Shown piece after piece: positions 6,552 through 60,098 of a DNA stretch of 64,000 nt (positions are counted from its first letter, which is position 1; every line of letters starts with the position of its first letter). Under the pieces are notes generated by a model. It saw only the letters and a program-made list of their open reading frames with translations, had not been told where the DNA came from and made no database searches. Origin of the DNA: Kappaphycus alvarezii (Eukaryota; Rhodophyta; Florideophyceae; Gigartinales; Solieriaceae); assembly GCA_002205965.3 (NCBI GenBank), contig NADL03000692.1, positions 1,488,001 through 1,552,000 of the forward strand. Direction: 5' to 3'. Both the position numbers and the translations under genes were made by a program.

Positions 6552-7091
6552 TTAAGTCATCACCAGATGACTCATATTGAAAAAACCGTTTCTGAGTTTT
6601 GTAACGATCTTCAAAGAGATTTTCTCTGGTATGAGATGCGGCTCGACTTGGGAGATACTGGCAGACCTCGCCGAAATTAAAATGAAGTCGTATCCAAAGA
6701 CCAGTTCATTTTCGAAGTCAATACCGGAACCTTCGAAAGGTCCAAACCACCCACTAACACGGTGGGCGACTAATTTCTCCCTCCAGACGCGAATAAGGTC
6801 TCCATAATGATAAAAATTGTCACTTTGCAAACGAACGGCGTGATGATGTGCCTGACTTATCCTTAGTTTCGAATTATCGGTTTTCATATCCTTTCGCGAG
6901 GTCTCCGCTATTTTACTTCGTTCAGATAACATTGGTTGAGTAGGATGAGGTTCAGGGGATGTGCAGAGTTGTCGATGTTCCCCAAAGATAGGGGACGATT
7001 TCACAAGAAATTTCGGTCCAATTATGTCTTTTATCACCTTCACAGAGCAAGCTTTCGCCAGGGCCTTGTTATTGTTAGGTTTACTTGCCAT
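6552..7091 (-). pseudogene. Retrotransposon polyprotein fragment (integrase C-terminal-like)
   Basis: The open frame is 179 codons. Its middle reads LIRVWREK, then after a gap GWFGPFEG and, near the end, ISQVEPHL. That spacing resembles the segment of LTR-retrotransposon polyproteins after the integrase core, where a GD-x-VWR motif is followed by W-x-GPF and a hydrophobic Q-V-x-P stretch. The N-terminal third is Ser/Lys-rich and unrecognised. Together with the RNase H tail downstream on the same strand, a decayed Copia element is the simplest reading. A chance match is possible because no catalytic residue is covered. Confidence 0.4.
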
Positions 7092-7525
7092 AACATTCTA
7101 GAACTTGCAAGGTAACGGTTCGGGATATCGTTTTACTATTCCAATTCTATGGTAGGACTCAGTGCAGGTATTTTTGACCTTAATATCGAAAAGATCAGCG
7201 AGATGTATGACATTCTCACCAGGTTGTGATGCTTGGTCCGTGAGTATTATGTTCGATATTTCACTTTAAATAGTAAATAATGATCCAGAAATGTATTATT
7301 GCTTCCTAGAAGTCCTCTGTATAAACAATTTTGAGTAGTTCTGCTGCAATGAATATAGAGCCTTCCTTGACGATATGCAGAACAGGATCCCCATCGATGT
7401 ATATGTGATGTCTAAGATCATGCACTAGCTAAATCGTAAAATCACTGCACTTAGCATGATGAGGAACCGGTTTGGCGCATACTGGATGCTTTCGCTTTTT
7501 TCAAGCCTTCTCGAACTGTCTTGCA

Positions 7526-7541
7526 GGGACGCTAATGTTTC
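7526..7541 (-). repeat. Dispersed palindromic motif, copy 1
   Basis: GGGACGCTAATGTTTC. This is the leftmost strong match and lies well outside the recognisable gene block of the 12-27 kb element. It may mark a more distant left end or be an independent copy. Orientation is CTAA on the plus strand, like the other left-side copies. Confidence 0.5.
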
Positions 7542-10500: not shown

Positions 10501-11910
10501 CAAACGTGTCCGGACTAGTGATCAGTAGCATTTTGGATAGGGGATATTGAGCGGCGATAGGGATATGGAAAAAGGAGAGTTACTTTATCGAGAAGGGCCG
10601 GGGCTGAACACCTTGGCAAGACTACGGACTAGTGGTGTTCACGCTGCGAATACTCTTTGATAAGATTTGTGATTGGGGGCATGAGACTAGAGTCTGATTT
10701 CCTTTACTTCACCACAGAAATATGCAGGTGCAACATGGCGAGTCCTCAATAAACTACTGTAACGAGCCTAAAGAGTTTGGTTTGAATAGGGTGGCTAAAC
10801 TCTGCGTGTTGTGGGGCGCGACATATTGCCGGCGCGGCACACGTGGACCAAATCGCATGACTATGTTGCTGATAAAGCCGCGTGTTCCATTCTACCTTCG
10901 AGAATCCGCTGTCGATTGCGACAGCGGCCGTGTATGCGTCGACTAACTGCGACGTTATCGCAGACGGCGATCGAAGCGGAATGAGATATGATGCATGCGG
11001 ACACTATAATGTACAGTACAGGTCTCTGTGTCGGCCTTCTAGCGACTTTGAACCGGATTGACTCCATTTCTTGGTTCCCCCATGCCGAACACTTGTACCA
11101 ATTTTTTTATGCGCTTTGGAACATAGGTTAACCTATTCAATAGAGGAAACTAGGGAGGCCTTGAGACGGTGTCATCCGGCCTTCGAGGGGTCTGAATGAC
11201 GGCCTCATCCCGACCCTTTCAATATGACGAATATATGAAACGAGCCAGTTCGTAGGTTTACAGTCAAGTACAGTAAAGTACACAACAAGAGATTTGTAAT
11301 GGTATTGTGTACAATCAGTGAACTGCCCCGTTTACCAATGGGTGATTGACACTTTCCAGGTTGGTTGTTCTACGGGAGATGGAATAGTCTCACTGCCGTA
11401 ACGTCACGGTACCAGTAGAACACACTATACGTGGAAAAGTATGCACCAAGAACCCCACAGAATTATAAGAAATAATAGTACATGAAAATGGCAGCAGAAC
11501 CAAACGGTGAATCTTCCAAGAATAATAAAAAAGGGTTTTGCACCGATGCCGTATGGCACAACATACTACGACGATATCACAGTATTTAGTGTTACCATGA
11601 TATATTATCACGGAAAACGGATCATTTCTCGCCTCAAAACCACGTTGGTAAATATCATTGGTAGGAGAATCTGACGTATCCATAATTTCCGAGACTTTTA
11701 CCATTCACAACTAATCATCCGATTTTATAGGAAAGGATATGGCCCACCACATGAGAAAGACGCAGACATTCGTGTGGTCAGATTGTTGAAAAGTGTGACA
11801 GTAACCCTCTCTGATTGTAGCAGCCGCGATTGTAGACCATTTGTACAAACCCTCAAATCCGATTGCAACGGTCTGTTTGGCCTTATAAATTTGTCATCAT
11901 AAGACGTAGA

Positions 11911-11926
11911 GAGACACTAACGTCTC
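11911..11926 (-). repeat. Dispersed palindromic motif, copy 2
   Basis: GAGACACTAACGTCTC has perfect 5-bp arms GAGAC/GTCTC around a CTAA core. It lies about 740 bp upstream of the first gene of the element and just left of the tandem repeat at 12011. Confidence 0.65.
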
Positions 11927-12010
11927 AAACACTCGAATATTCCATCTTATGATCTGTTGCAAACTGTAAGCACCATCTCCTTTCAATTATTGCTTGGTGT
12001 TAGGTGTGTC

Positions 12011-12260
12011 GTGCATGCGGTTGGTGAGACGTTATCTTCTCGATCATTGAAGCACAGTTTTTTGCGTTCGGAGGTTGCAACAGGTGTTGTTTTGAGAGGT
12101 TTGGATCTGGAAGTGAGGTTGTGACGGCCTGTGTGGCAGGTGCGGTGTGCATGCGGTTGGTGAGAAGCTAGCTCCTCAATCATTGAAGCATAGGTTCTTG
12201 CGTTCGGAGGTTGCAACAGGTGTTTTTTTGAGAAGTTTGGTTTTGGAAGTGAGGTAGTGA
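12011..12260. repeat. Two 114-bp direct repeats at the left edge of the element
   Basis: Units at 12011-12124 and 12147-12260 (period 136 bp) align end to end without a net length difference. Both start GTGCATGCGGTTGGTGAG and end GGAAGTGAGGTNGTGA. They differ by scattered substitutions, so the duplication is not recent. They lie about 390 bp upstream of the first gene, a position suiting a subterminal or promoter repeat. Confidence 0.85.
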
Positions 12261-12649
12261 GGGTCTGATGGTGAAAGAGGAGTGAAACTGGTTTTTGTCG
12301 TGAGTGGATTCTTTTTTGTGTACTTTGTCGCTCTTTTGGCAGAATTAGGCGTCGTGTCAAGGTTTGAACTGCATCTGTACGGGTTTTGGGTTCCGTATAC
12401 CGAGGAGTTGACTGGTTCTTTTTGTTTACCGCAGTGATTATTGCGGGGTTTGTTTGTGTACCGCAGAAGGCTGGTTGCGTGTGAAAAGTAAGCTTCTCGA
12501 GCTTTATAAATGGATATTGCGAGGTTCATAGGATTGACGATTGTTTATTTTTAGTAATACGGTTGTCTACTGTGTTGAGTTGCTGGCCTGAGAAGTCAGC
12601 GTCCAAAATAGAGATCTTGGTGTTGCGTTTCTGACTTCCAAGCAGTGCA

Positions 12650-14440
12650 ATGGGTGACGAACAGATTGGGTCAATTGCCACTCAGTTTGCTAATTTGGCA
12701 ATCACTAAAGCGTTAGCGAAACCTGCGAAAAAGTACTCAGTGAGATGCTTGGAGCATGTCCCAGGGTTAGATTTGCTCATCAGACCACTCGATATGTTTG
12801 ATGTTGCAAATTTGGCGTCGAAAGTGATGAGGGAAGGATTTCGTGCTTTGGAGCCAGTGGTAGCCACTCTTTTCATTCTCAGCCTGGACGGCATACTGAT
12901 TGTGCAGCTGCAATCCATACTGAATGTAAATCATCGGTGTGCAGCGACTCGGGACTCACTTGTTCACCTAATACGGGTTCATGAGATTGAAGAGAAGGAC
13001 TTCATGTATGTTTACCGTGCGGTAAAGGGAGAGGCTTTTCAAGCAGAAGGATATGTGTAACCGGAAGGAATCGATGATAAGAAGATGCAAATGCTAGAGT
13101 TTTTATCTCAAACAGTAAAGAAGTTAATGATTTCAGCGAATTTGACATGCAGTGTCCCCAAACCGTGGTCACTTCTGAACCAGGCTTCCCTAATTCCTAC
13201 GCATGTTACTACGCACAAGGTCCCCTCAGTTGTGAATAAGAAAGTATACGGGGGTAAGAGAGCGTTGAAGAGGAACATTTTCGGCAACTACCCAGGGGAT
13301 TCATATGGGCTCACGCATTTCTTGTCGATTGAGCGGAATTCTTCCCGTCATACGAACAAGGTACTCCGAGGGGCAATGCACCTCCTTGAGGCAAGGGTTA
13401 CCCGTCCTCCGAAAAGTTTAGGGAAACACAAGACCTCTGTTTTGGGCGTTTTGACGTATAGGGAGCACACAAGGGCACTAGAAGATATCGGTATCAACAA
13501 TATTGGAAATGCTGGAGAGATTACACAAAAAGAATTATCGAAATGTATTCAGAAGCACATGAACGCTATGCATTGTCATGAAGATAATTAGGTGGATTAT
13601 AACGGTAGATTCAACGAGAATACTCCGAGCAACACCTCCAAAAGGTACGTTTTGTCGAAACTAGAAGAAAATTCGGACGAAGTTGTGAACAATAGGAAAC
13701 GAAGAACGAGGGAAAAGGTTGTACAAATATTGGATTCCGATGATGATTTGTTACTGATCGAGCCGCAAGAACAGTCAAATAGGACAAGTAGAGCCACGCA
13801 ATCTAAATCTTTGAAGCGAAAGAGTTCTAGAAAAAAGAAGCAGAGGAAGACCATCAGGGGCGCAAGGGATTCGAAACCCCATTCGCCCACAAGGGAGAGA
13901 CATGGACGCCAATCCCGGGACGCTAATGTTCCCGGTACACCAATCCCGGTTGACGATGAGTCTGGTTCCCCTGAACAGGAGGTGATTGTACCGGAAACAC
14001 CACCCAGATCTACCATTGTGAAGGTCGGTCCCGTTATTGCAAAGAGTATGAGAGCGACAAGGAGCATGTTGTCTGCTGAGAAAAGCCAGCAGGAGATGAA
14101 TCCGATTATCGACGGTCTGAGGGCAAAAATAGCAATACCGGCAGCTCAGTCGCATGAGGACAGGGAAAGGGCGAGGACAGGAGCCGGCGGAGCAGGATGT
14201 GGGGCATATAGATCATAATGCCCTAATGCGTCTGGGCAAAATTTACCACCTGTACCCGCCAAATTGTTTAGACAAGTTCAAACGCGCCTTCTACAGACGC
14301 AGCCCGAGGTTCAGGGTTTATGGGAGGGAATCGAGATACTGAAGACTCAAGAAAATGTCATTGATGATTTGTATGATGACAAGATGCGTTTGTTGCGAAA
14401 TTGCGTTGAGAATGCCATGAGAAGGAGAAATATACTGTAG
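12650..14440 (+). pseudogene. Nuclear-type protein with SUMO-interacting-like motif; family unknown
   Basis: One frame stays open for about 597 codons from ATG at 12650 apart from stops at 13058 (TAA), 13589 (TAG) and 14216 (TAA), and ends with TAG at 14438-14440. That the frame never shifts argues these are point mutations in a single gene. The first half (to 13591) looks globular. The next part is basic and disordered, with a Lys/Arg-rich nuclear-localisation-like run (KRKSSRKKKQRK, about 13816-13851). At 13718-13759 it has VVQILDSDDDLLLI, a hydrophobic core followed by acidic residues as in SUMO-interacting motifs. The last 70 codons are Gln-rich and end in a helix-like basic segment. No known domain is recognised. 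It is the first gene of the unit and shares orientation with the next three. Confidence 0.5.
13916..13935 (-). repeat. Dispersed palindromic motif, copy 3 (inside a coding frame)
   Basis: CGGGACGCTAATGTTCCCGG is the longest inverted repeat of the set (outer arms CGGGA/TCCCG, with an interrupted inner match). It falls within the disordered region of the 12650-14440 gene, where it encodes SRDANVPG. Orientation is CTAA on plus, as for other left-side copies. Confidence 0.55.
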
Positions 14441-14776
14441 TAAATTGCAATGTTGCCAAGCTCACCTGTACATTGAATTGAGATAGTATACCATGTGAAC
14501 AGGAAGTGAATGATTTGGATTCGTAAAGAATTACAGGTTCAAGATTCTCAGATTTGTTCTGTAATCTGTAATGCAGGCTGCAGTAGAGATTACGGAACAA
14601 CAAAACGGGTTTGAACGGAAACATTGACTTGAACATTGTGATCTGTACATCTATGAGACGTTTCAGTTACAGATCAACTTCAACAACGTCTTGAAATTTT
14701 ATATGGCAGTCATATCAATCCAAGATTCGGATGCATGACATAGAGTCGGTATATAACATTTTTTGAAGTTGTTGGA

Positions 14777-16560
14777 GTGGCTAGTTTGCTAACCATCGTA
14801 CGGCATTGCACGATGATCGGACCACAAGACTCAGGCACACGTAATGAGTACGGCCTAATGAATGGGGTATCACCCCTTGATGTAGCGAATATGTTCTGTT
14901 CTACTGGCAAAGTCACGGATACAGTTCAGGACGCGAGCGACCGGGATATGGTCGTCATGCCTCACAGTGAGCCATCAAGATTGAAATTTTCTGTCACGGA
15001 AATCTTTGCAATGGAGAGAGTCATGAGGAGAGGGGAACAAAACCATCATCTGAAGAATAGGGATGAGACAATACCTCGGAATACTGGAGCACTACCATCT
15101 ATGCAAGCGTTTATGGGGTCCTCACATGGGCAAGGGGGACGGAAAAGGGGACCGCAGGGAGCGTTACGACGAATAGAAATAGGGAAATCGGTGAAGGTAA
15201 TAACTGCGAAGGTCTTGACTCGAAACAGTGGAGGAAACTTGGATAGTCTCATCCACAGAATAGATCAGATCACAAGAAGTGAACAAAGGTACACCTTATC
15301 TTAGCATTGGTGTACTAAATTGAAGTTTTATTGTCTCTATACTTCTCCGATGTTGACACAGACGCGAAGTTTGTTTCACATTCATCCTACCTCACCGTTC
15401 TTATGCATATCACTCCGTTTACCTTTCTCGCAGGTTGGTATACACGACAATTCGAAAGGCAGACATGTCTTTGTCTTCTGGTTATCAGGAGGCGGTTTTC
15501 AGAGATTTTCATGCATGGGGAACACTCTATTCAGAGTAATGGAAGGTGAAATGAAATTTTTTCATGTCAATGCTATGAAACAGAAAAAGCAGAAATCGGG
15601 GAATGTCTCGGGTTATCTCCTGAAGTTTCAGGGGAACTGCTTGCTGTGGTATACTGCGCTGCGTGTGAGATGTCACCAACTACATTTCTAGACAAATGTC
15701 CAGATGCAGTTGTTTGGCATAGAGATACTCTCGTTACCCTATCCATGTCCCGACAGAATGGGACCAATCGGAGCATATACTTCATACCTATGAGAATATT
15801 GAAAAGGGGTGGCTGCTCCATATGTGAGTTCTATGATACGATGACAGCAGGCGGTGGTCTTCACATTTCTGAAGTTCATCTCATCTTTTCGAAATCAAAC
15901 GATCAACAGGAAGCTGATGTCCTGACAGAACATGATACAAATCCGTATGATGGTTTTTTGGGTGATGATGAGTACGGAACCGAATTTAATGAAATGCCGA
16001 GAGGCATTGGACGGGAAGCTAGCGTCCTGAAGGAAAATTCGCCCACCAATATAAGGAGTTACCGATGTGAATCGTTTCTTGCCCTTGGACCGGTCAATTG
16101 CAACAGGTCTATGGATGTTGATGCTCTTGTTTGCGATGCAGCACGAAATAAAGTACCGTTCAAGATGGATGCACCTTCTATCTGTCCTATATGTCATGAA
16201 AATGTCGCAAAACACCTGCTGCGGACCACACGACCTGGCATTCTGATGAGCACATTGGGACCTTGCCAAATGCAGGTTGACAGTTTGTCAACATGCATTA
16301 CTTGTGCCCGAATTGTGGATATAATATTAAGGCAAAAGGAAGAGATGATTGCATACTATTCTTGTTATCAACTACAGCTGCTACACATGTCGTGATGCGT
16401 GCATTATTTACAGGGGTGGTCACGGGTAACGGCACTATATCTGAAAGACGGAAGGAATATCATTCGCATACAGTTTCATTGACCGAGTCTGGAATTATAA
16501 CGTCGTGTATCAAAACCAGACCTGTGAAGTACATGCAGCGTATGTGCAATGTAATGTTGG
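14777..16560 (+). pseudogene. OB-fold/zinc-ribbon protein, possibly RPA-like single-strand DNA-binding protein
   Basis: Segments in several frames make up this gene. The first exon-like frame (14777-15288) is followed by a candidate intron (15289-15433). After it the frame reads YQEAVFRDFHAWGTLYSE, then shifts to MEGEMKFFHVNAMKQKKQ. This resembles the strands around the middle of an OB fold in replication protein A large subunits. The frame at 15646-16395 carries CPICHEN, and after another shift CPNCG (about 16308), giving a CxxC...CxxC zinc ribbon like the C-terminal RPA OB fold. RPA coats single-stranded DNA; next to a helicase that role makes sense. Identification rests on pattern and context, and the N-terminal part is unrecognised. 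At least two frameshifts are needed. Confidence 0.35.
15289..15433 (+). other. Candidate spliceosomal intron (145 nt)
   Basis: The donor GTACAC follows CAAAG, and the acceptor is preceded by the pyrimidine-rich TTTACCTTTCTCGCAG. Removing it bypasses an in-frame TAG at 15302 and joins the upstream frame to a downstream frame that reads into the OB-fold-like segment. No branch-point consensus was verified. Confidence 0.4.
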
Positions 16561-16582
16561 AATTGATGACCAAAGCACCTGA

Positions 16583-18320
16583 TGCAGATTTTTTTCGTGT
16601 CGAAAGTGTGAAGGTGGTGGAAGGCTGGAAGCAGTTTGCGTAGACGGCATCCAGCAGGTTTTAGCTAAGATGAACCAGGTACCATTTTCAAGTGTAACGG
16701 AACCATGCGAAGCAATCCCATCCTCCAGTGCAGTTCTCAATGGAAGTACGTACCGCCCTAACACGCGGTTCATAAGGAGAGAAAATTCCCCTGTGACGTT
16801 CCTCACGGTAGTACGTGGAAGGAAGATATCTGTAAATAAAGACAATATTTGTTACATAGCTTCTTCGCTACGAATGATACGATCACGAAGTGTGACGGTG
16901 TAGTTCTGTCCGGAGGCTATCTGTGGACGAACACCCGGTGACACACTTAATGAAATTGGCCCGGGCAGCTACCTTGACGTGTTGAGCAGTGTTTGCTTAT
17001 TTATATTTCATAAGCATACAATGGAGAGTCATCTTCTGTCAGCATTATATGCTTATGTCTAAATGCTCCATTCTTCTTATTCAAGCAGGTTCGATGAATT
17101 AGGAGGTAGTGCTCAGGGTCGTTATCCAGCAATACATCAGTCTATTGTGCATGCATTAATGGCGCTCGAAAGTGTCTTCTCGTCTATTATTGAAATATAG
17201 GAGACTGCTGGAGGCTAATTATTTAGAAAATTCTCACAGGAGGCAAATGGTGTGATCTCCTTGATATGTTCACTATCTTCTTCCAAGGACCTGTGACTCA
17301 ATTTGTAAAAAATACTGATGTGGAATCGTCACGGTATGTCGGAAACGTATGCATCCTGAAGGAGACGGGAAATCAGCGTCTCAAGGAAATTACTCCGGAC
17401 CCGACGGTAATTTCGAATATATTTCCCGGTAATCAAACTAACATCCTCCTAGTGTCACAGGTTATGAAGGCAGATCTCCAATGTTTGATAGAGATCGAAG
17501 AAGGTGACAGGCACATTGGAATGAATGTCAGGGTGTCATTTGGGAAAAGTTTCTTGGCTGCAACTCGCATTGTATGTCAGTTCTACTCATATTATGATTC
17601 ACCCATCCGGAAAAGTTCTGCTGTTACATATGTCGCCGTGTGGAATTCAATGACCTACGACAATTTGATTAGTGCCATGAAGGCTAAATATGGGAAGCTA
17701 ATGTCCGAGGCGGGCACTGATTTGCAACGGGTATTCACCACGGGGAGTTACTTTCCCGGTAGACCGCAATTAAGACCTCTTCCTTTCAATAGGGATGAAG
17801 TCCCAGGCAACAATGATTCAGATCTCGGTCCCTGTTCAAAGAACTATCTCCAAAAACAGAACTTTTTCACACCTGGAGCGGTGACGGTAACTTGCTCCTG
17901 TGCAAATCCGGTATCTTTCGGATTCAAGGTTCTAAGCCGACTCGAAGGCACCAAGGTTGCTATGGATGTTTTGATATCTATATTCCCGGAGTTACCGCGT
18001 TATGTACTCGGCCATTATCAACCAACTGTGGTGGGCATTTAGCAGAACTGTCGTGGTAAGTGATAGGTTCCATGTCGGGAACCACAATGCGTGTTCACTA
18101 AGTTTCATGCCTGCCGCTCATAATGGGTTGGATTCCCAAAAATTCTGTTGCTAATGAGCAAAGAAACAGAGGTATCAAGTTATTGTGTCGATCATTACGT
18201 AACAGTGGAATGAAACTATACACAAGCATGCTGGCATATCATACCTTGATTGGTAATATCATAGCCACTGCCAAAAGTACTGATGTATACCAAGCGACCA
18301 CAGACTTTTTAGGAGATTAG
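16583..18320 (+). pseudogene. DDE transposase with CxC cysteine cluster (KDZ/HMGXB3-like)
   Basis: A cysteine pair (SCRKCEGGG, codons at 16598 and 16607) is followed by VCVDGIQ, whose Asp codon at 16643-16645 is the candidate first catalytic residue. Around 17860-17960 comes TPGAVTVTCSCANPVSFGFK, then LEGTKVAMDVL and FPELPRYV. This is the CxC plus 'P-x-V' block that precedes the second Asp in this transposase family; the expected YDNAC-type motif is not readable. A shifted frame then gives SDRFHVGNHNACS (Asp codon 18062-18064), and a further shift gives NSVANEQRNR (Glu codon 18156-18158), matching the conserved DRFH...H..C...EQ.N end. The region 16900-17265 is open in pieces only. At least three frame changes are present, at least some of them 1-nt indels. 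Family assignment is from motif order and known KDZ-associated CxC proteins. Confidence 0.6.
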
Positions 18321-18626
18321 TGGTTTTATTCATTTTAAATTAACAGTGAATTCAAGTCAAAGTCAATTTAAGTTATAATTTGGGGGGAGCATAGCAAACG
18401 TAGTAATGCAAAAATTTCCTTGGAATATGATGCCCTTGTGAGGGTTTATTAGAGGGAGTACAATACTTGGAATGCGACGCGTGACTATCTCCCAGGTACT
18501 AACTGGTATATGCCGCTTTTTTTGAATTCGCACCCCTACCTCGCTTCATACACAGTGATCTTCAGTTGATGTTGTTCAAATCCGAACAAATGGGAGCTGA
18601 TGTTATTTTAATTCCACGAGATTTCC

Positions 18627-19953
18627 ATGGTAATGCCCGGAGATCCACTGCAGAATAAGGTTTTCAGTTTACCCACACAAGGGAATTCAGTGGCTCTTCT
18701 TGGTGGAGCTGGTACCGGGAAGACGTTCGTGTTGAATCGAATATTGTGTGAGTTGAGAGAAAGTCTAGGAAATGACGTGGTTGGAGCGTGCTCTGTCTCA
18801 AATCAAGCCGCAGAGCGAATAGGCCGAGAAACGGTCCACCCCATGTTTGGAGCACCTCCCAATTGGTGTATAACGAAGGAGATACTGCTGCAAATTGCCT
18901 GCCGTGACAAGACGCGAGTGTCCAGATTGAAAAGGATGAAAGTTCTGGCAATCGATGAGTGTTCGATGTTAAGCTGTGGTTTTTTTGAGTCCAATGACTG
19001 GGTACTGAGAGAATTGTCAGAATTTCATCGCCATTTGGTACTTCCATTTGGAGGGAGGCAGTTAATTTGCACTGGAGATTCATTTCAACTGGAAGCGATT
19101 CAACATGATGAGGCTTCACCAGGAGAAAATCAGGAAATATTTCCGTCAATGGCGTGGTACATCATGTATGGTTCCTTCGGTGCGGGTATAACAGGTTTTC
19201 TGAGCTGCAACCATCGGCAGAAAAACGATCCTGCGTTTTACAACTTATTGGAACGCGTTCTTGTTGGAACAGTAACAGACGATGATATTCGTCGTGTGAA
19301 TGGAACTATTCGTAGCACTCTGCAAGGGAATGGTAACTTTCAGTACACGAAACTCTGTCTGTATCTCAGTGAGTTTAGAAGGTTTAATTCTTTTTCTTTA
19401 TCTAGACTCCCGGGCATTGAGTATTTCTGTAATGCTGTAGATGGCTTAAGGTTGTCGGAGACACACATAGCAAGAAAGCTGGAAAGAATTGCTGAAGGGA
19501 TAATTCCAGTGAAAATTGGATGCCTTTTCTTGTAACAAGGAAGATTGGAGAGTACCTATCTGGGACCCAGCTCATTGCTCGAGATGTTATCTTTAGAAAT
19601 ACATCCCCCGAAACAATAATCGTAAGTACTGTTGACAGTAAAAAAATACTCTATCTCCACCCAATGTCACATTCTGTGAGGAACAGAAGGGCTGAAGTTG
19701 TGGCCACACGCAAGAAGTTCCCCTAATATCTGGATACGCCGCAACGATTCACAAGTCACAGGGCTTGACTTTGTCCAATGTTCGTGTTGTTTTTTCGAGA
19801 GTTGGTGATTGGAAACCAGCAGGTATGGTATACGTTGCTTTATCGATGTGTACTTCCCTTTCAGGCCTTCATGTGAGCGGTCTTACTCGTGATCACATAC
19901 GCGTCAGCCCGCATGCACGGCAGTTTATGCGGCGGATTATGAAGTGGCAGTAA
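18627..19953 (+). pseudogene. PIF1-family DNA helicase, two frameshifts
   Basis: Superfamily 1B helicase that unwinds DNA with 5'-3' polarity. Walker A GGAGTGKT is at residues 26-33 and Walker B IDECSM at about 109-114. Motif III-type LICTGDSFQLEAI follows near 145-158, then the PIF1 signature LSCNHRQKNDPAF near 190-203. After a shift near 19515 the frame reads PFLVTRKIGEYLSGTQ. After another near 19722 it reads ATIHKSQGLTLSNVRVVF, the conserved late helicase motif, and the protein ends in TAG-free sequence up to the TAA at 19951. Each shift is explained by one missing base, one of them in a run of C. The total is about 440 residues, shorter than cellular PIF1, and no N-terminal domain is visible. 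It starts about 300 bp after the transposase on the same strand. Helitron helicases are a relative, but no Rep/HUH motif was found. Confidence 0.85.
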
Positions 19954-20396
19954 ATCTCTCCAAATCTTGTTCTGGGTAAACGACAGCCTTGTGAGGTACT
20001 TGGTAAGAATGAGAGAACCACCATGAAGAAACTTTTCGCTATCTGGGTCGCAAACGTCTCGGAGAGGGTTATAATATTTGAAACGGCCGCAAACGATTAC
20101 AGAGATAGTTTGCTGCGCTCCCAGCGTTTCCAGCGTTCCAAAAGTCGCGTGGAAGACTCGACTCGCAGAGCTCCAATCAATCCCACAGTGGTGACCCACT
20201 GCCGTTCGCATCATCATTGTAAACGTCTTTAGCCGGTATATTAGCGTTATTATTGATTAGGGCGACAATGGATTGGATTTCTTTAACTGTATGACCACCT
20301 GACAATCAAGCGCTTTCCTATTGTTACCAACTGGCAGCCTAGTTTGCCTATTTACCCTACTCGAATTGCTTACACATCATAGCATTATCACCAATC
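19954..20396. other. Spacer between convergent genes
   Basis: Lies between the end of the helicase and the end of the minus-strand gene at 20397, so both transcripts should terminate here. Overlapping small frames on both strands show no motif. No clear terminator is visible. Confidence 0.4.
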
Positions 20397-21547
20397 TCAA
20401 CCTTCTCGCTGTCCAGAAGAAGACGAACTGTTCGATAGCACTTCATGCATGTTCACATTCTCAAACGGTATTTGGTGATATTCGAACATAGGTGCGTCTC
20501 CCTCCCAGAACTCACTACTCGAAATCTGCGCGATGTTGTTACGACTGTCAACTGTCCTTGTAATTTCCCTTGGATTGTACTTTTTGGGTGTAACCCGCTT
20601 TCTCTCCCAAGCCTCAGAGTCCAGATCAATCTTCCCATCGGTTTCCATTTCTAATTCCTCGACATCTCGCATATATGATTCCAAGACAGTACTGTTCACC
20701 GCTGCGTGCAGTTGTACTGGAAGGACCTTCTGGAAGCTATCCTCAGGTATTTTGAGTATTCCAGGAGTATTTTGAACTTCATTCTGCAGGCCTTCTGGAT
20801 AGTACACGCACCATGATATCATCTTTGCGTCGGGGAGACGTACCTCAACCGGTAGATTGACGGTGAAACATTTTTTTCCGGCGACAATAAGGATATCTCC
20901 TACATAAATTCGGAAACTTCGCTCCCTTCCGTCGCATACGCTGAAAACTTGATCGTTCGCTTCATCTAAATTACCTCAATCTCATCTTATCCAGCCACTG
21001 TAATGTACGCATAATGAGATTCTCCCTCGGGAATAATCGAAGTCTTGTCTACATACCCACCGAGATATATGAATATACTGAACTTCGGTTCGTCCTTATC
21101 TCGCAAGTAGCAGTTTGTAAATCCACCATCACCATTCACAAACATCTGCGGCACAGTAGTTTGAAGAGGCATGTTAAGTCCACCTGTCAACATTTCAGAT
21201 ATCATTCCCATGATATGAGGAAGTGCAATTCCGTCCGGGGTTCTCACAGTGAGAGTGTGGATCAACGCATCTGCATGGTGACTGACATGAGACACTAGCT
21301 TCTCAATACGTGCTCTTCCTGTCACACTGGCTTTCTTGATGTCGTTTGTAGAAAGATAGCCGGAAACAGGATTCTTCTCGTCCCTAAACAACGCAAACTC
21401 AGTGCATAGCAACTCAACCATTCCTTCTTCTTGTAGCTCAGAAAAAAACTCCGTCTTGATTTTGGACGCATACACGTTGTACAGCATGACGTTGCTTTTC
21501 ACCACACCTAGGGATCTAAACACATAGTTAAACACTGATTTCCTCAT
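20397..21547 (-). pseudogene. Unknown protein of the element, about 380 residues
   Basis: Two long minus-strand frames (20987-21547 and 20397-20822) join through a 160-bp stretch that is open in the frame of the second. A single gene with one break near 20980 is therefore likely. The N-terminal half is helix-like. The middle contains FSIFIYLGG and, after the break, FRIYVGDILIVAGKKCF, a strand-GD-strand pattern like a jelly-roll or double-stranded beta-helix. The histidines and aspartate of iron/2-oxoglutarate dioxygenases are not evident. The tail is acidic, then Ser-rich with a SSSSS run. No in-frame stop interrupts either half, so it is one of the better preserved frames. It is transcribed toward the helicase; the region upstream (21548-22885) holds three copies of the palindromic motif. 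Cargo or accessory factor is a guess. Confidence 0.45.
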
Positions 21548-21733
21548 TGCGATCTGTAACCGTGGCCAACATTACACCCTATCACTGGTACCTCCACACA
21601 GCGTTGATGGTGTCCTGGTGTTGATTTCTTGACCGCGCTAAGTCCCAGGTACCAACAGGCCGTCTTGATCGAGATATACTGTCGAGGTCTTCCAGAAATA
21701 AAGTCATGAATGCCAAAAGCCTGATGAAGATGT

Positions 21734-21885
21734 CAGCGTCCAGAGAATTCACTTGCGATCCCAACCTCTGTGCCTGATCTACACGCGCTCCAGAATCAAA
21801 GCAAAGTACAACAAACGCGTGGTGAGGACGTTAGCGTCCCGAATTTCGATGTGCAAGCCCAGGCTCGGTGCCTACGTCAATACAG
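21734..21885 (+). repeat. Degenerate direct repeat, period about 95 bp
   Basis: The stretch from GTCAGCGTCC (about 21732) through CTCTGTGCCT is echoed from GTTAGCGTCC (21830) through GCTCGGTGCCT, with intervening similarity in the AATTC and GCAAGCCC/GCGATCCC segments. Each unit starts with a version of the palindromic motif; only the second is well conserved. Confidence 0.45.
21826..21839 (+). repeat. Dispersed palindromic motif, copy 4
   Basis: GGACGTTAGCGTCC has perfect 5-bp arms around TTAG. It lies about 280 bp upstream of the minus-strand gene start at 21547. Orientation is TTAG on plus, as for all strong right-side copies. Confidence 0.65.
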
Positions 21886-22200
21886 TCTGGGAGATTAATC
21901 AGTAAAGGAGTGAGACACATCTGAGACACGTCAATTGATAATGTGAGGGTCTGATAAAATCTGGTACAGTACGTATCATATCAACGAAACCACCAATACT
22001 CAAGTTACATGTATTCAGTGCAACGTCCCAATCAGTATTTGGCCAATGAACGTCAATTCATCTCGAAATGGGCATCAATGCAGTTTTTGATTCGATAGAC
22101 GACGAAAACTATAGTTTCTATTCACTGACGCACATGTACGAATTTAAAATTCAAACATATCATCAAGTTTTAGTCGTTACGATTTGGTACAGATATTTTC

Positions 22201-22217
22201 AGGACATTAGCGTCTCG
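22201..22217 (+). repeat. Dispersed palindromic motif, copy 5
   Basis: AGGACATTAGCGTCTCG, TTAG orientation, in the divergent intergenic region. Confidence 0.6.
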
Positions 22218-22846
22218 TTTCTTTCTCGCCACTGAACATAGAATCCCGTACGCCCTCCTATATTGCATTTTCCCGTCGGGTTCAATGTTACTCGCATACA
22301 AATTACACGTCTTCTCTGATATGAGGCGAATGGTATGTACCCTACATTCAAGTTTGACGTGGGCCACAATTTTCAAATTACCTGCCTAAATTACTTGCCG
22401 AAGTTCCATGAAGGAGTGCCCCCGTGCCGCTGAATGTTCGTAAGGATGAAACTTTCCCGCACACATAGTTCCCCCCGCATACAGTTTCTAGCGAATGAGA
22501 ATGTCGATTAATTAAATTATTTTCCATTTGAAATGTGCGCACTTGAAACGCTTTCTACCCTTGTAATCTTCCAATCGTGTTTTGTCTCTGGCAATGCACA
22601 GGAATACAGAATCCTGAGCTCTGCTCCGCTCACCAACGCCATTGTCACTTCGTCTACCTTCACTCCACATATCATTTCTTCTCCCTCCCCATACTCTCAT
22701 ACATCTTCCGCAACTTAGTCCCTTACTGAGTGCAGTAACTCGTTGCTGTCCTCCTCCTTTTCCATCTGCACAGGCATGACAGGGTTACGGGATTTACCAT
22801 CACCACCTTTCCACCCGAGCAATTCATCTCGGCTACAATCGAGACT

Positions 22847-22864
22847 TGAGACATTAGCGTCTCA
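22847..22864 (+). repeat. Dispersed palindromic motif, copy 6, just upstream of the Ulp1 gene
   Basis: TGAGACATTAGCGTCTCA has perfect 6-bp arms TGAGAC/GTCTCA. It ends 21 bp before the ATG of the Ulp1 gene, so it would fall at the transcription start or in the 5' leader. Confidence 0.65.
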
Positions 22865-23700
22865 GTCATATCATCCCCATTCAAGATGCAAGATCTTAGG
22901 AAAGAACCCATACCCTTCGGTGTTAACAACTTTACAGTGAATAGATCACACATGACAAGGCTTCTCTCGCATGAAGGACTACTGGATGATGAGTTGATTG
23001 ACGGGTTCTCTTGGCGACTAAATCATCGTAACAACAATCGAGTGAGGTCATCGAAGGAAAGCGTTAAGATACATGTGTTCTCAATTCAACTAATAATTTT
23101 GTTAATGGAACATTACAACTATCATCGTGTGTCAAGATGGTTACAGAAGAGTTTCTGGAATATCGAAGTCGTTGACCTTCTGTTGTTACCTCTCAAGATG
23201 AATATTTCTCACTAGGTTTTAATCGTTGTAAGTTTGAAGGATAGAAAATTCATCATCTACGACTCCGTTCGACATCATATCGGTATCTTCGACCAATACT
23301 TTAGCGTCATCAAGAAGTATCTCCGTGATGAAGCTAAGGCTTTCGATATCGAGCTTTGTGGCAAAGATGGGCGGCATACCAGCGCCTCTGTTTACAAGAC
23401 TCGCGTTAGTGGTTTAAGGAAGTGGCCCTGTACGATAGAGAACAGTTTCCCTAGGCAAACTGATTTAGGGTCATGTGGAGTGTTCGTGTGCTGGTTATGG
23501 AACATTTGAAACGAGGTGTAATCCCCAAGTTCTCTCAGGATCATATCGTTTTACTTCGTCGTCGACGTCTACTGTTACTGATGGGTTCTGATTTGCACGC
23601 TATTTCAATTGCCGTTGACGATAAGGACGATGACGGTGACAGTGAAAACTGGGATGATATCGAAGATGATAATGATGAGAGTGATGATGATTCAGAGAGT

Positions 23701-23820
23701 GGTGATGATGATGATTCTAAGAGTGGATACGATGATGATGCTAAGAGTGGTGGTGATGATGATGCTAAGAGTGGTGGTGATGATGATGCTAAGAGTGGTG
23801 ATGATGATGATGCAGGTGAT
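23701..23820 (+). repeat. Coding microrepeat: Asp-rich octapeptide units
   Basis: Repeats of about 24 bp encode units such as GGDDDAKS, repeated about five times in the acidic linker of the Ulp1 gene. They are nearly identical at DNA level, so likely still expanding or recently expanded. Confidence 0.75.
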
Positions 23821-23930
23821 AATGAGAATCTGGGTGACCACGGTGAATCAGATGATGGTAATAATTGTGATAATGTAAGGAGGGTTGGTGCTGATGCGAA
23901 TCGGAGAGATGGAGCAGATGTGAGTGATGG

Positions 23931-24165
23931 TGTGGAGGGGGGAAAGCTGTTCCTTCTCAAGATGGGGAACGTGTCAGTGGTTCTGTTCCAGTTACAGATG
24001 GTGGAAATGCCGGTACTGTTGGTACTGAGAAGTCAGTGTCTCCTTCGGAGCCTCAACCTTCCTCCAGTTTCAATTTTGTCGAGGGGGGGAAAGCCGTTCC
24101 TTCTCAAGGTGGTGAACTTGTCAGTGGTGGCGCTGTTCCCGTTACTAATGTTGGAAATGCTGGTA
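23931..24165 (+). repeat. Two coding repeats in the Ulp1 tail, one carrying a G-run contraction
   Basis: A roughly 90-bp unit starting GTGGAGGGGGG (23931) recurs at 24078 as GTCGAGGGGGGG. Both encode VEGGKAVPSQ...VSG...VPVT. The first has six G after GA, the second seven. The missing base accounts for the frameshift at the first copy, giving an internal reference for the lost nucleotide. Confidence 0.75.
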
Positions 24166-24642
24166 CTGCTGGTATTGTTGGTCACATTGGGATTGCAAAT
24201 AGTCCTCCTGCCAGGTACAGTGGGGATATTCCTGCTTCTGTTCCTGTTACTGGTGTCGGTAGTTCCAGTCAATTTAGGAACAGGAAGTCAATGTCCCAGA
24301 TTAATATTCAGGGTGCAGGTTCTGGGAAGAAGCGTAATCGTTCTCGTGATGGATCACCGGCATCAGGTGATGATTCAGCTATTACTGGGAATGAGCCTAG
24401 GCGTTCCCGTCGATAGAGGAGGAAACCCACAAGGTCCATCTGAATGTCAGTGAGTGATGTAGTGAGTGATTTTGCATACTTCGTGTAATAGTACTTGGAC
24501 GCTTTGCTCTTTGATCGGGTGATTTCATTAAAGCAATATGTCCCTCATAGAAACTTTCATCTACTAGTAGTTTCTACCTTATTTACTTAATAGGCGATAA
24601 TACCAAACACAAACCTATGATTGGGTCTGTTCGAACAAATGC

Positions 24643-26277
24643 TCACTGTGCCAGAAAAATGCAGTTGCAGCTTCCAGATCCGATACCGTTTTCGGTACTT
24701 CTTTCTTCTGGAAAATGCATCTTTCTGTACCTACTCGCATTCCTATGTCTGTAAAAATGCATTACAGGGTAACCAAGCTTCACCAAGTCCTCCTGTTCAT
24801 CACTTAGGTCCCTATAAACTTCGTCGCTGCATTTTAAATCACATATCAGGCTGCAGTTTGAAATGTCCATCGGAGCTACATCTGACTGAAGGTTTTTTTA
24901 TTGATGAGAAGAATTTCTTCTCCACCATTATGGCAGTTCCAACTACAGATTGGAATTCACCACGGAAAGTCACTCGACTAATACATGACTTCAATAGACA
25001 GATACGTCTGCGTGATATGTCTCCTGCCTTCACATGAACTTCTTCACTAGCTTCATCTTCCACAACCCTAAAATGCAGTGCAATCAGATCTTCGCTGATC
25101 TTATCTCCCAACAAATACGTCAGGAAAGGTTTCACTTCTCCCTTCACAATGTCCTTTCCTTCAGACGAATACAGGACATTAGTGTCCCGTATTTCTCCAC
25201 AAGCGTTATGATCTTTTCTCCGTAAATACGTGAATTTGAAAGGTCAGAACCCTCACAACGCATATTTCTGCAGTAATTCTCAAACAACGATCTCAGACGG
25301 GTTATTTTCAAATAATGCGAAAATCAGCGCCACATGTGCCAGTTTCGAATTCTTGCTCGGCTTCCCAATCTTCACAGCACAGTTCCTTGTACCGTTTATA
25401 TTTTACGTTTCATGCCTATTTCTATTCATATTCAGCGTTGACATTGACACGATCTTCCTTTTCAATGTCTGAGGAACCAAACTCATGTACTTTATTCCCT
25501 TCATTCTCCGTCCGTTTTTCTTGCAGTTCTCCTTAAACTTGGTAAACATTTCCGTCACAATTTCCGCCGTCAATATGCGACTTATGCAGTCCACATCACA
25601 CGGCTTCACCAATCTCGAGTGTGCGCTGATACCGCATTCATCTCGTAATTGTGAGTACCCCTGCACAACAAAATCATTAGGTACGTGATGTGGAGCTTCA
25701 TTGCCACCGCCGGGGTTTTTTTTTAACATGTCTTCAGTGACCCCAGCTTCTTGTCTTTGATGACTACTATCTCCATTTCTGCCGTTTCCATGATTGTTAC
25801 ATAGAGGTACTCGAAATTGTTGTTGCAGACGTGCGTCTCGAGATAACATTGGAGGGTTGTGAAGCAGATCTTCTCTTCCGGTCAACATCTCTTCCAAATT
25901 ATTTTCAACTGTCCATTGCACCTCACTTGAATTGGCAGGTTCCGTCATCGGCTCCTTATTTCTGTGGTTGGGTTCTGCACTATCAGCAGTGTTCTGAACT
26001 TCATGTTCGGTTGGTTTTCTACCAATTTTAGGTTAAGAGAGTTCCTTCACATGGTGATGTCGTCTTCACGTACAATCCAATCTCCATTTCACCAATTTTC
26101 GGAACTCTTCGAACAGTAGACTTCACCACATTCGCCATATTCACGTAACTTCCGCAATATGATCTGTTTTTCGGCTACAATAGCGTCGCATTCTTCCTCA
26201 TTCAAACCAGGAGAAGGAAAAACGCAAACATGGTTTGCGCATTTTTCCAAATCATCGGGCGTCATTTCCAAATTCAC
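24643..26277 (-). pseudogene. Unknown protein of the element, several breaks
   Basis: Segments at 26089-26277, 25403-25948, 24839-25147 and 24643-24870 appear to be one gene read leftward. The 25948-24839 part stays in one frame through four stops (one TAA, three TGA between 25403 and 25250), all explicable as C-to-T changes in CAA or CGA codons. The start and end need frame changes near 26060 and 24850. The first segment reads MTPDDLEKCANHVCVFPSPG. The centre has an Asn/Gln/His-rich part, and the later part is basic. No domain is recognised. Motif copy 7 lies inside the frame and encodes RDTNVL. Copies 8 and 9 lie 210-265 bp upstream of the presumed start. Confidence 0.4.
25174..25187 (+). 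repeat. Dispersed palindromic motif, copy 7
   Basis: GGACATTAGTGTCC is a perfect palindrome apart from the TTAG centre. It lies within the broken frame of the 24643-26277 gene. Confidence 0.65.
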
Positions 26278-26486
26278 AGTTCTAAACTTCTGGGAAGCTA
26301 AGTATCAAGCAACATATGAGTGTTAACTGTGGTAGATATCACCCCGTACCGTTAAAACTAGGCAGAACACGAACTTCTCGATTCTTTCCACCAGGCTTTA
26401 CAGCACTCTCCACAGATCCGCCCTCTTCAACCGCAAGCAAGGCGCTAGATTATCTCCTATTAACAACGAAAATAAGTGGTTGTAAA

Positions 26487-26500
26487 ACATTGGCGTCTCT
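26487..26500 (+). repeat. Dispersed palindromic motif, copy 8 (diverged)
   Basis: AACATTGGCGTCTC, with TTGG in place of TTAG; 38 bp from copy 9 and in the same orientation. Confidence 0.45.
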
Positions 26501-26524
26501 TCGCTTGACAGAGAAAGTTGTTGC

Positions 26525-26541
26525 AAGACGTGAGCGTCCCG
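26525..26541 (+). repeat. Dispersed palindromic motif, copy 9 (diverged)
   Basis: AAGACGTGAGCGTCCCG keeps GACG/CGTC arms around TGAG. It is the rightmost copy before the hairpin cluster at 26620. Confidence 0.45.
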
Positions 26542-26619
26542 TCTACATACAAAGTAAGTCCTACAAAGTAAGTTCCTTCCCTAAAGTATTCTAGTAAGGT
26601 TCCCTATAAGTGTTTTATT

Positions 26620-26755
26620 CAAGGGTACGAATAAGCGCGAAATTTGGCCCATTGATTTTGGAGCGGCCGAGTAACAGCCATATTAATACCCAAACATTCC
26701 CAAGGGTGTGAATATGGCTGTTATTTGGCCTGTCTAATAGCCAAGGGTCTGAATA
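26620..26755. repeat. Hairpin plus three direct repeats at the right edge of the element
   Basis: CAAGGGTNYGAATA occurs at 26620, 26701 and 26742. Between the first two, TAACAGCCATATT (26672-26684) is answered by its exact complement AATATGGCTGTTA (26711-26723). The outer flank GGCC on each side extends the imperfect arms to about 20 bp. It could be a transposon end, a small foldback element or a terminator-like hairpin. Confidence 0.7.
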
Positions 26756-27814
26756 AGGGTCATTTTTGGACCTTTTAACCTGCTTCCACTTGTCGTAATA
26801 ATATTTTTTCATTGGTTTCCGGTTTTCATACCATTTATTTTAGTTATATTATTACCTTCACTTCGTTTATTTTCAATTATATTTTGATGTTAGTAATTTC
26901 ATTGGCTTTCGCAAAAAACACACAATTTTTTCATATTTATTATTTTTGGAGTTAGACACTCCAACTTCCGGTAGCCAGGGAATGTTCCAACTATTTCACG
27001 ACTGCGTAAATGCTCCATCTGTTTCACGACTCTGTGAAATAGAGCGAAAACCCCGATTCATTCTGAACTATAACGGTCACTTTGTATACAAATGATATAA
27101 TGCATTCGTCTTTTCTTCTACTTTCATTTCCTAATCCTACTTCCCTAGTGCGACTACCTCCGTTGATCATTACGGTTCAGATTCAGATAATCTGAATCAG
27201 AGACACCCACATCCTACAATAATTTCGTTACCCATGCGTACGGGCCCGATACTTCGTTTCTAACCAACACCACTGACATTGCCCATTTATCGCTTTCACC
27301 TTGGTAGTGTGGCCTGGGGAATAACAGCATGTCTCCCCGATACTTGTGTTAACACTTGTGTTAGCATTCCTCCATCTCGGTGTGACATTTGGTGTGCTAA
27401 GCGTAACACCCACTGGCAGCGTTACTCTCTCTTCCAACATTCCACCTACCTCTCACTTTTTAAAGCTTATTTCTCTTTTTCCTTCATTACCTACTTTTTC
27501 TTTACTTTTACTACTTCTTTCACTCTCAGCACTAGGGGTACCCCCCCTTTCCTGGGGTCCCTTTTTCCTTCTTATTCGGCCTCCCTAATTTACCACGTTC
27601 AACCTATTTTTCAATCATTGAAACACCCCAATTTTCCCCCGATACAGTACATACATACGTGTATATCGCACAATGGCGCTAATGTACGATAATTTGTACA
27701 GTAGCACGAACAACAATAAAGTGTACCAGGATAGGTTTAGAGGAGGTTTGCGCAAGAATAGCTATGATGATTTATTAGTCATTTTTATATATATAATCAT
27801 CTTTACTTCATGTA
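26756..27814. other. No gene; AT-rich then pyrimidine-rich DNA
   Basis: AT-rich to about 27.1 kb, then a C/T-rich stretch on the plus strand (27430-27640) whose open frames are low-complexity. It contains the palindrome at 27180. Nothing else is supportable. Confidence 0.45.
27180..27198. repeat. 19-bp perfect palindrome
   Basis: GATTCAGATAATCTGAATC has 9-bp arms around one A. An isolated site that could bind a dimeric protein. Confidence 0.7.
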
Positions 27815-28225: not shown

Positions 28226-28273
28226 TTACACAGTTTAGCCACCCTATTCAAACCTAATTCTGTTAGGTTTGTT

Positions 28274-28434
28274 TCAGTGGGGTATTCAAGACTTTGCATG
28301 TTGCACCTGCATATGTATGTGGTAAAGTAATCGAATACCATTTACACATGTCCACATGTGGTGAACATTTATTTAAATGTGCCAGGTGTAACAGAGTGAT
28401 CCAGGTCGACCAAATGCATTGGCGCGCAGAAAAA
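28274..28434 (+). pseudogene. Possible zinc-finger fragment
   Basis: One plus frame reads VCGKVIEYHLHMSTCGEH followed by FKCARCNRVIQVDQMHW. The CG...H...CG...C..C......H spacing recalls TRAFD1/XAF1-type zinc fingers. It stops after about 50 codons and is flanked by LINE tails, so at best it is a gene fragment. It may be chance. Confidence 0.25.
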
Positions 28435-34150: not shown

Positions 34151-34191
34151 CGGAAATATCTTCCAACAGTAAAACACCCAAACGTTCCCCC
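34151..34191 (-). repeat. 40-bp repeat shared with 60057-60098
   Basis: The minus strand here reads TTTGGGTGTTTTACTGTTGG, close to TTTGGGTGTTTTACTCTTGG on the plus strand at 60 kb, with similar flanks. A member of an unidentified dispersed family. Confidence 0.55.
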
Positions 34192-34728
34192 TTTTCTGAC
34201 TTCATTATCTCTGCCCTTGACGCAGATTCGTACCACTCGTCTACATGCGCCAAAAATGCATGGTTACTAGCGACTGGGTGACGGCGAAACATTTCCCGCC
34301 ATGCCACCCCCCCCCCCCCGTTGGCCATATTTTCCGCGGTTTAAGAAAAGGCGGGTTAACCTAATACGAACCCTTTCGAATTGAAATTGTGTTCCCGACG
34401 TCGGACGATCTGCACCGGCGGGATCAGAAACACCCACCCACCATCACACTTAACATCACATTTAACGATGGTTGTCCTTCTCCTTTGAGTTATCGCCCTT
34501 TCCAAAGTACCTTCTCGATCCCCTTCACATGTAACCAATTGCCCCTTCTCTCCACCTATTCATAAACTCCATTTTCTTTTCCACTCTCAACCTAGCTCGC
34601 GCCATTTTCCCTCTCTTCTCTCGACCACGCTAATCTCTACCGCACCCTTCTCCCCGATACCCACCTCTCTTTCCCACACATTCCTGTCTTCCACTACAAA
34701 ACCATCTCCAACTTCCTTCCCTTATGGC

Positions 34729-41948: not shown

Positions 41949-42087
41949 TGTTAGCCACAGTTTGCGTACTGCATCGATCTAGTCGAAATTGCTGAGAGAT
42001 GTGTAGAAAAATGTACACAACAATATGCGAAGTTGCGAAGCCCATGTCTTCTGATGTTTACAATCAATATACTATAGTACTTATACA
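41949..42087 (-). repeat. Copia B 3' LTR
   Basis: Aligned over its length with 46723-46860, sharing CTAGTCGAANTTGCTGAGAG and ATCAATATACTATAGTA. It starts TG and ends CA as read on plus. Confidence 0.8.
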
Positions 42088-46722: not shown

Positions 46723-46860
46723 TAACATAAAATTTCGTACTGCGTCGATCTAGTCGAACTTGCTGAGAGATGTATGCAACAATGTACACAACAAGATGCT
46801 AAGGTGAGAAGCGCATGTCTTCTGGTTTTTACGATCAATATACTATAGTAATTTTATACT
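46723..46860 (-). repeat. Copia B 5' LTR
   Basis: Partner of 41949-42087. Its inner edge touches the primer-binding site, which fixes the boundary. Confidence 0.8.
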
Positions 46861-60056: not shown

Positions 60057-60098
60057 AGGGGAAAGGTTTGGGTGTTTTACTCTTGGAAGATATGTCCT
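60057..60098 (+). repeat. 40-bp repeat shared with 34151-34191
   Basis: Lies between the two LINE reverse transcriptase copies and may mark the insert that separates them. Confidence 0.5.

Follow-up and report, generated by a model that had tools for sequence, protein, structure and literature searches.

Six broken genes in Kappaphycus alvarezii look like the wreck of one large transposable element with its own helicase and SUMO-type protease

A 64-kb stretch of the Kappaphycus alvarezii genome (here called the window) carries a six-gene cluster of roughly 15 kb, which raises the question of whether these genes once moved together as a single element or are the debris of several. The gene cluster is real, and every gene in it is broken (6/6 disrupted). 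The remains suggest a single large mobile element equipped with a helicase and a SUMO-type protease, and the interval from about 11.9 to 26.8 kb is probably one inactive copy of a giant multi-gene DNA transposon of the DDE type. The copy in the window is dead, and no second copy was seen within the window. The genes were arranged on both strands as follows.

12647..14437, plus strand: gene A, 597 codons in one frame with three in-frame stops (13058, 13589, 14216)
14744..15301, plus strand: 186-codon open frame ahead of gene B, which could be a gene of its own or encode the N terminus of B; left out of the codon test
15319..18317, plus strand: gene B, transposase-like, with several frame changes and stops; family label presumed from its motifs
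18627..19950, plus strand: gene C, predicted stand-alone PIF1 helicase (Pfam, PDB, relatives), frame broken after 19532
20400..21571, minus strand: gene D, split into two open pieces (21571-20990; 20975-20400) that differ in frame
22886..24413, plus strand: gene E, predicted Ulp1/SENP-like cysteine protease whose long tail is acidic and serine-rich (Pfam, PDB, residues by eye)
23682..23813, plus strand: tandem repeat of a 24-bp unit, in frame, within the protease tail
24842..26304, minus strand: gene F, three open pieces split by stops and frame changes

The predicted product of gene C was confirmed as a member of the PIF1 helicase family by both a profile match and the motif series. The piece at 18612-19532 matched PF05970 (3.6e-18) and AAA_19 (5.8e-10) in Pfam, and a PIF1 structure was matched in the PDB (3.9e-23), where the Helitron protein Helraiser was also among the matches (1.6e-4). 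The helicase motif series was readable by eye. The PIF1 helicase of the original prediction was upheld in this way, with two qualifications: the frame is broken beyond 19532, and Met stands where YVALSR has its conserved arginine. Two close relatives were found in public assemblies (P0001 and P0002, 34–35% identity); they scored 263 and 240 bits, compared with 110 for the next protein, and gene C grouped with them with a support of 1.0 in a tree that included 60 of the 120 listed relatives. Both are 502–510 aa long and start just ahead of the helicase. Virus and prokaryote collections yielded no close relatives of this helicase.

Gene E was likewise confirmed, from profile match and residues together, as a predicted Ulp1/SENP protease (C48). 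The open piece 23216-23506 alone matched Peptidase_C48 in Pfam (8.1e-8), and the match rose to 8.4e-16 for 22850-23506 when the in-frame TAG was read as Trp; the same translation matched SENP1 in the PDB (2.7e-7). The H, D, Q, and C residues on which the protease had been predicted were present by eye. The in-frame stop at 23213 adjoins the catalytic His; further downstream the reading frame shifts twice, near 23.5 and 23.93 kb.

The assignment of gene B is a lead. Cysteine pairs (CPIC...CPNCGY...CRKC) and the blocks VCVDGI, CSCANP...FPELPR, DRFHVGNHNAC, and VANEQRN are readable across the broken frames, and together they resemble those of a KDZ/HMGXB3-like DDE transposase. The DDE transposase with a cysteine cluster that had been predicted was thus upheld in part, by residues read by eye and not by homology: gene B pieces gave no significant Pfam match (best 0.069, DUF7584), no KDZ or CxC profile of Pfam was matched by the open pieces or the joined read, two pieces had no significant match in the PDB, and two protein searches (7483 and 380 candidates) returned no homologue at E<=1. 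The place of the expected second Asp reads LSTNC in this copy. An H(3)H arrangement is present in DRFHVGNH, and a C(2)C between the second D and the last E was not seen in this broken gene. Seven virus-contig matches to the DNA pattern of DRFHxxNHxxC were set aside, as the surrounding frames do not look like a transposase.

Genes A, D, and F have no assigned function. The middle of gene A is basic/acidic, and its VVQILDSDDD is possibly a SUMO-interacting motif. Mean pLDDT of the predicted structures was 42 for the first half of gene D and 32 for the first half of gene A. An RPA-like zinc-ribbon/OB protein had also been predicted here; this candidate was rejected, as the Pfam scans and the PDB comparison of three pieces gave no RPA or OB-fold match. 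At the level of profiles, Pfam recovered the PIF1 and Ulp1 families and matched neither KDZ nor RPA.

The kept frame of gene A contained 3 stops in 597 codons, compared with 17–38 in the other five frames. When codon usage was trained on the other five genes, the claimed frame was the best of six for all six genes, the pieces having been picked for being open. Genes B and C scored +13.6 and +9.8 bits, less than one control frame (+17.0) among 30, the remaining 29 being negative, and a second frame of gene E was also positive. Coding capacity of A, B, D, and F is supported but not proven, and the three further genes that the original prediction had listed held up in this test. Its description of tightly packed genes was right about the cluster, in which two enzymes were confirmed by homology and three more genes were supported as coding, but all six are broken. 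The disruption of each of the six genes was a point absent from that prediction.

The unity of the cluster gained support because codon usage was common to its genes, and also because a 14-bp near-palindromic motif, GACRTTAGCGTCYC with the core GACGYTARCGTC, ran through all of it and was nearly missing outside. With at most two mismatches, the motif occurred at 14 places in 11.9–26.5 kb (a region of 14.95 kb) and at one place in the remaining 49 kb; when the region was shuffled 100 times with dinucleotides preserved, 0.15 places were obtained on average and never more than 1, the motif having been noticed in this region first and then tested in it. In another segment of equal length, taken as a control, the most frequent complex 14-mer recurred at 9 places, compared with 10 here, and that 14-mer is a self-overlapping TACAGTAC repeat. 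When three mismatches were allowed, 8 of 34 matches fell outside the region. The first sites precede gene A and the last ones lie upstream of F, with sites in coding as well as intergenic DNA.

11911..26540, no strand: minimal extent of the putative unit as delimited by the shared motif; the true ends may lie beyond
11911..11926, no strand: motif place with two overlapping matches
11997..12267, no strand: 136-bp tandem duplication upstream of gene A, with the motif at 12028 in one unit and a weaker copy near 12163 in the other
12028..12041, plus strand: motif place
13917..13930, minus strand: motif place in gene A
16013..16026, minus strand: motif place in gene B
17369..17382, plus strand: motif place in gene B
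17692..17705, minus strand: motif place in gene B
20045..20058, minus strand: motif place between C and D
21291..21304, plus strand: motif place in gene D
21827..21840, plus strand: motif place upstream of D
22203..22216, plus strand: motif place between D and E
22850..22863, plus strand: motif place 22 bp ahead of the presumed protease start codon
25175..25188, plus strand: motif place in gene F
26486..26499, plus strand: motif place upstream of F
26527..26540, plus strand: motif place upstream of F
26622..26790, no strand: short-repeat cluster (GGGTNYGAATAWG, three direct and one inverted), possible right-side subterminal repeats

Retroelement remnants bound the unit on the outside, at about 10.98 and 27.88 kb. 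A 102-bp inverted repeat (10704-10804 / 28229-28330) was rejected as terminal inverted repeats (TIRs) because protein-level comparison placed both arms within fragments of a retroelement that also occurs elsewhere in the window; it is retroelement debris. No convincing TIRs or target duplications were found around the cluster. A systematic search of end pairs (~2.3 million position pairs, without shuffle control) returned short matches only, no 8-bp (Zisupton, KDZ1) or 7-bp (Kyakuja) duplication was located, and no convincing pair of CAC..GTG ends with a 3-bp duplication was found in 11.0–12.65 / 26.5–27.9 kb; such ends may be elsewhere or decayed. CpG depletion, considered as a sign of methylation, was weak and not particular to the cluster region.

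These observations could also arise if at least two separate elements, for example a transposon bearing gene B together with helicase-bearing and protease-bearing elements, had decayed side by side. Genes on both strands, their general decay, the retroelement remnants that abut the cluster, and the failure to find ends all fit such a nest. However, one motif extends from A to F and is nearly missing outside, the genes share a codon signature, and inverted pairs that enclose just part of the gene set are all short (18–28 nt) and may be chance; we regard a nest as unlikely. An integrated dsDNA virus, or an element like a virophage, that has since decayed, with Ulp1 as maturation protease and PIF1 as replication helicase, is considerably less probable still. 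Ulp1-type proteases and SF1 helicases do occur in such viruses, and three genes without assigned function would suit one, but no capsid, polymerase, packaging ATPase, or integrase was matched in the Pfam-scanned pieces or in six pieces compared with PHROGs, and the protease matches SENP1. Patterns from the helicase group found no relative among virus contigs (0/109 stretches). P0001 as query detected 28 virus loci, compared by helicase alone; 23 of them fit the generic PIF1 protein P0003 better than the window, P0001, or P0002, and the other five matched over 46–77 residues only.

Helitrons are known to carry PIF1-type helicases and RPA, and the Helraiser match would agree with a remnant in which PIF1 was the helicase part of a Rep/helicase element. 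The cellular PIF1 match is far better, no scanned piece matched HUH/Rep in Pfam, and the two closest proteins begin just ahead of the helicase, which makes a Helitron origin highly improbable. A different question is whether the element belongs to an already described red-algal EnSpm family or to the giant EnSpm/Plavaka elements of another red alga, giant Plavaka transposons reportedly being the subject of a paper on Bostrychia. This possibility, which overlaps with a single giant transposon and does not exclude it, is open to doubt but deserves attention. The size and gene number fit the families of 16–20 kb with 4–5 ORFs stated in an excerpt of PMC6431247, and giant red-algal EnSpm elements with multiple accessory genes are cited in the available part of PMC12477816. 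Against it, paired CACTA ends were not found, and Pfam scans of the pieces gave no EnSpm or Plavaka match. Overall, we infer one mobile unit with a DDE-type transposase, PIF1, and Ulp1 as the best reading. The single unit of the original prediction is favored by the shared motif and codon usage, while its RPA-like protein was not found, no ends or target duplications were located, and the transposase family is presumed from motifs.

If the cluster was one transposon, the living element was probably mobilized by the KDZ/HMGXB3-like transposase of gene B, EnSpm/Plavaka kin being the main alternative for this enzyme. The near-palindromic sites might be recognized by a DNA-binding protein that the element itself encoded, for example B or else A, D, or F; dispersed as they are, the sites would then serve as an address that marks DNA as belonging to the element, by analogy with some transposon-encoded regulators. 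The PIF1 helicase could deal with single-stranded DNA during excision or gap repair; the Ulp1 protease may counter SUMO-dependent silencing or modify the transposition complex. We put forward only tentatively that a giant cut-and-paste lineage carried its own PIF1, a SUMO protease, and such an address as one package; if true, strand handling, anti-silencing, and self-recognition travel together in one element. In the portions of the published descriptions available, size and superfamily dominate, and the accessory genes of giant algal DNA transposons are mostly without assigned function. If one dispersed motif unites a DDE transposase with PIF1 and Ulp1, the means by which large elements of this type withstand excision gaps and host silencing would become testable, and the motif suggests that element bodies with decayed ends could be delimited from sequence alone.

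The original prediction recognized no described family with this combination. The category, at least, is not new: brown, green, and red algae have yielded published giant transposons of the KDZ and EnSpm types, some of them bearing accessory genes, as excerpts of PMC12477816 and PMC6431247 state. Giant KDZ (Kyakuja-Dileera-Zisupton) elements of algae and fungi reach 30.3 kb in Ectocarpus and 31.7 kb in Chlamydomonas, pair the KDZ catalytic core with a CxC domain that chelates zinc, and often have transposase genes predicted as pseudogenes (excerpts of PMC12477816, PMC12730594, PMC12810828). The cluster resembles them in its large size, accessory genes, broken transposase-like gene, and candidate cysteine-cluster domain, but gave no KDZ profile match, and neither TIRs nor the 7–8 bp target duplication (8 bp for Zisupton and KDZ1, 7 bp for Kyakuja, in the same passages of PMC12730594 and PMC12810828) were located. 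The excerpted KDZ descriptions do not mention PIF1 among the accessory genes (PMC12477816, PMC12730594, PMC12810828). With the giant EnSpm/CACTA elements of red algae, as partly described, the cluster shares the range of 16–20 kb, 4–5 ORFs, and multiple accessory genes, whereas the C(2)C and H(3-4)H features are incomplete in the broken gene B and the CAC..GTG ends with a 3-bp duplication were not found. Helitrons have the PIF1-type helicase in common with the cluster, in which the helicase stands alone and no Rep/HUH domain was found. VANDAL transposons with VANC anti-silencing proteins also have a short element-specific motif, denser in non-coding parts and partly in tandem duplications (excerpt of PMC5735166); the motif of the cluster likewise lies partly inside a tandem duplication, but it is near-palindromic, occurs in coding and intergenic DNA, and is only a putative binding site; no VANC-like gene was identified. 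Taken together, the element is most likely a variant of the giant algal DNA transposons of known kind, possibly one already listed.

Six disrupted genes were found between 11.9 and 26.8 kb of the window, in the following order and orientation:

12647..14437, plus strand, gene A
15319..18317, plus strand, gene B, transposase-like
18627..19950, plus strand, gene C, PIF1 helicase
20400..21571, minus strand, gene D
22886..24413, plus strand, gene E, Ulp1/SENP protease
24842..26304, minus strand, gene F

The cluster is real and decayed, and most likely represents one giant multi-gene DNA transposon. Stops or frame changes disrupted all six genes, and the present copy is therefore dead. Gene A contained three in-frame stops in its single frame of 597 codons, compared with 17 to 38 in each of the other five frames; genes B–F were assembled from pieces picked as open, so that few stops there are no test of coding. 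In terms of codon usage, trained each time on the other five genes, the claimed frame was the best of six for every gene (A +54.6, B +13.6, C +9.8, D +22.3, E +86.9, and F +38.4 bits), with a second positive frame in E (+41.2) and in A (+8.2). Among the 30 control frames from five flanking pieces, 29 were negative and one scored +17.0, exceeding B and C.

Two enzymes of the original prediction were confirmed. Gene C matched PF05970 in Pfam (3.6e-18) and PIF1 in PDB (3.9e-23). Gene E was an Ulp1/SENP protease: the C48 profile scored 8.1e-8 on the open piece and 8.4e-16 when the in-frame stop was read as Trp, a reading that also gave 2.7e-7 against SENP1 in PDB. The RPA-like protein that had also been proposed was not recovered, as nothing found in the cluster resembled RPA. 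Within gene A, VVQILDSDDD (13700–13760) resembles a SUMO-interacting motif, which is noteworthy with a SUMO-type protease gene nearby.

Of the 7995 candidates scored in the protein search with gene C, 517 were relatives at E ≤ 0.001. Among the best 120 of these 517, the closest were P0001 (35% identity, 263 bits, source label ena) and P0002 (34%, 240 bits, lgn), both matching along almost the full length, against 110 bits for the third-ranked match. In a tree of 60 of the 120, these two and the window helicase formed one group (support 1.0). All of the first twelve relatives, these two included, kept the arginine of YVALSR, which was Met in the window copy. Patterns from the three proteins found no relative in 109 stretches of virus contigs or in 29 of prokaryote genomes; virus-contig searches with the window helicase alone and with P0002 alone also gave none. 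P0001 as the sole query retrieved 28 virus loci, of which 23 were closer to the generic PIF1 P0003 than to any group member, and the other five matched the group over 46–77 residues only.

The predicted KDZ/HMGXB3-like transposase, gene B, is a lead only. Cysteine pairs (CPIC, CPNC, and CRKC) were readable, followed downstream by VCVDGI, CSCANP...FPELPR, DRFHVGNHNAC, and VANEQRN, an order that we take to be that of KDZ/HMGXB3-like transposases. However, no significant match was obtained in Pfam or PDB, and two protein searches gave no homologue at E ≤ 1.

The unity of the cluster was suggested by the near-palindromic 14-bp motif GACRTTAGCGTCYC, which occurred at 14 separate places (≤2 mismatches) within 11911–26540, taken as the minimal extent of the element, whereas 100 dinucleotide-preserving shuffles of this region averaged 0.15 places and never exceeded 1; the motif was noticed there beforehand, and the test was thus not blind. 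Eight places were intergenic (4.7 of 15.0 kb) and six inside genes, and some of the motif sequence fell within a tandem duplication of 136 bp that precedes gene A. The single copy with ≤2 mismatches elsewhere in the window (7526–7539) had the same letters as that at 13917. At three mismatches, 26 of 34 window-wide hits fell inside the region (shuffle mean 10.6, maximum 19; 100 shuffles). In a control, the best complex 14-mer of equal segments recurred 10 times in the region, nine in 28.5–43.45 kb, where it was a self-overlapping TACAGTAC repeat, and six in 43.45–58.4 kb. The distinguishing feature of GACRTTAGCGTCYC is its restriction to the gene cluster. Palindromic short repeats of the TACAGTACTGTAC type recurred in the GC-richer stretch at 29.39–32.4 kb, and also at 11003 and 11260.

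The claim of one mobile unit gained support from motif clustering across genes A–F, but no convincing terminal inverted repeat (TIR) with target duplication was detected at the cluster. Missing TIRs are not decisive, because Kyakuja elements are described without them in part of PMC12730594, although fungal KDZ1 has TIRs of 241 bp and duplications of 8 bp (PMC12810828, in part). Short repeats at 26622–26790 may be subterminal. A long inverted repeat flanking the cluster was rejected as terminal repeats, being retroelement debris. Mutually similar remnants were located at 10.70–10.98, 27.88–28.33, 28.9–29.2, 32.66–32.92, 56.7–57.9, 61.1–62.26, and 63.35–63.67 kb, and by eye represented a non-LTR retroelement whose end encodes a restriction-like endonuclease; part of them bordered the cluster, imitating terminal repeats. 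Elsewhere, Copia-type polyprotein-like frames were seen by eye at 36562–37779 (minus), about 43.5 kb, and 6555–7097 (minus), together with a 41-bp inverted repeat (90%; 34152–34192 and 60057–60097, spanning 25.9 kb) and a 124-bp direct repeat (86% identical; 41962–42085 and 46733–46856, spacing 4.8 kb).

The two enzyme identities, the gene disruption, and the motif clustering are observed; beyond them, we infer that the transposase would perform the cut-and-paste step, a self-encoded protein would bind the palindromes, PIF1 would unwind DNA during excision or gap repair, and the protease would target SUMO-dependent silencing.

Among the papers listed by searches of open-licence literature, no description of a transposon with both PIF1 and Ulp1 surfaced. 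Sections of PMC12477816 describe giant KDZ, EnSpm, and Sola-1 transposons in Ectocarpus, many of which carry extra genes and whose transposases are often pseudogenised, the movement of a 31.7-kb KDZ in Chlamydomonas, and, as cited there, giant red-algal EnSpm elements with multiple accessory genes. The EnSpm families of Chondrus crispus are 16–20 kb with 4–5 ORFs (PMC6431247, in part), and the present element is possibly among the red-algal EnSpm families already on record. As to the motif, VANDAL elements illustrate how a regulator that they encode can make use of a motif specific to the element (PMC5735166, in part).
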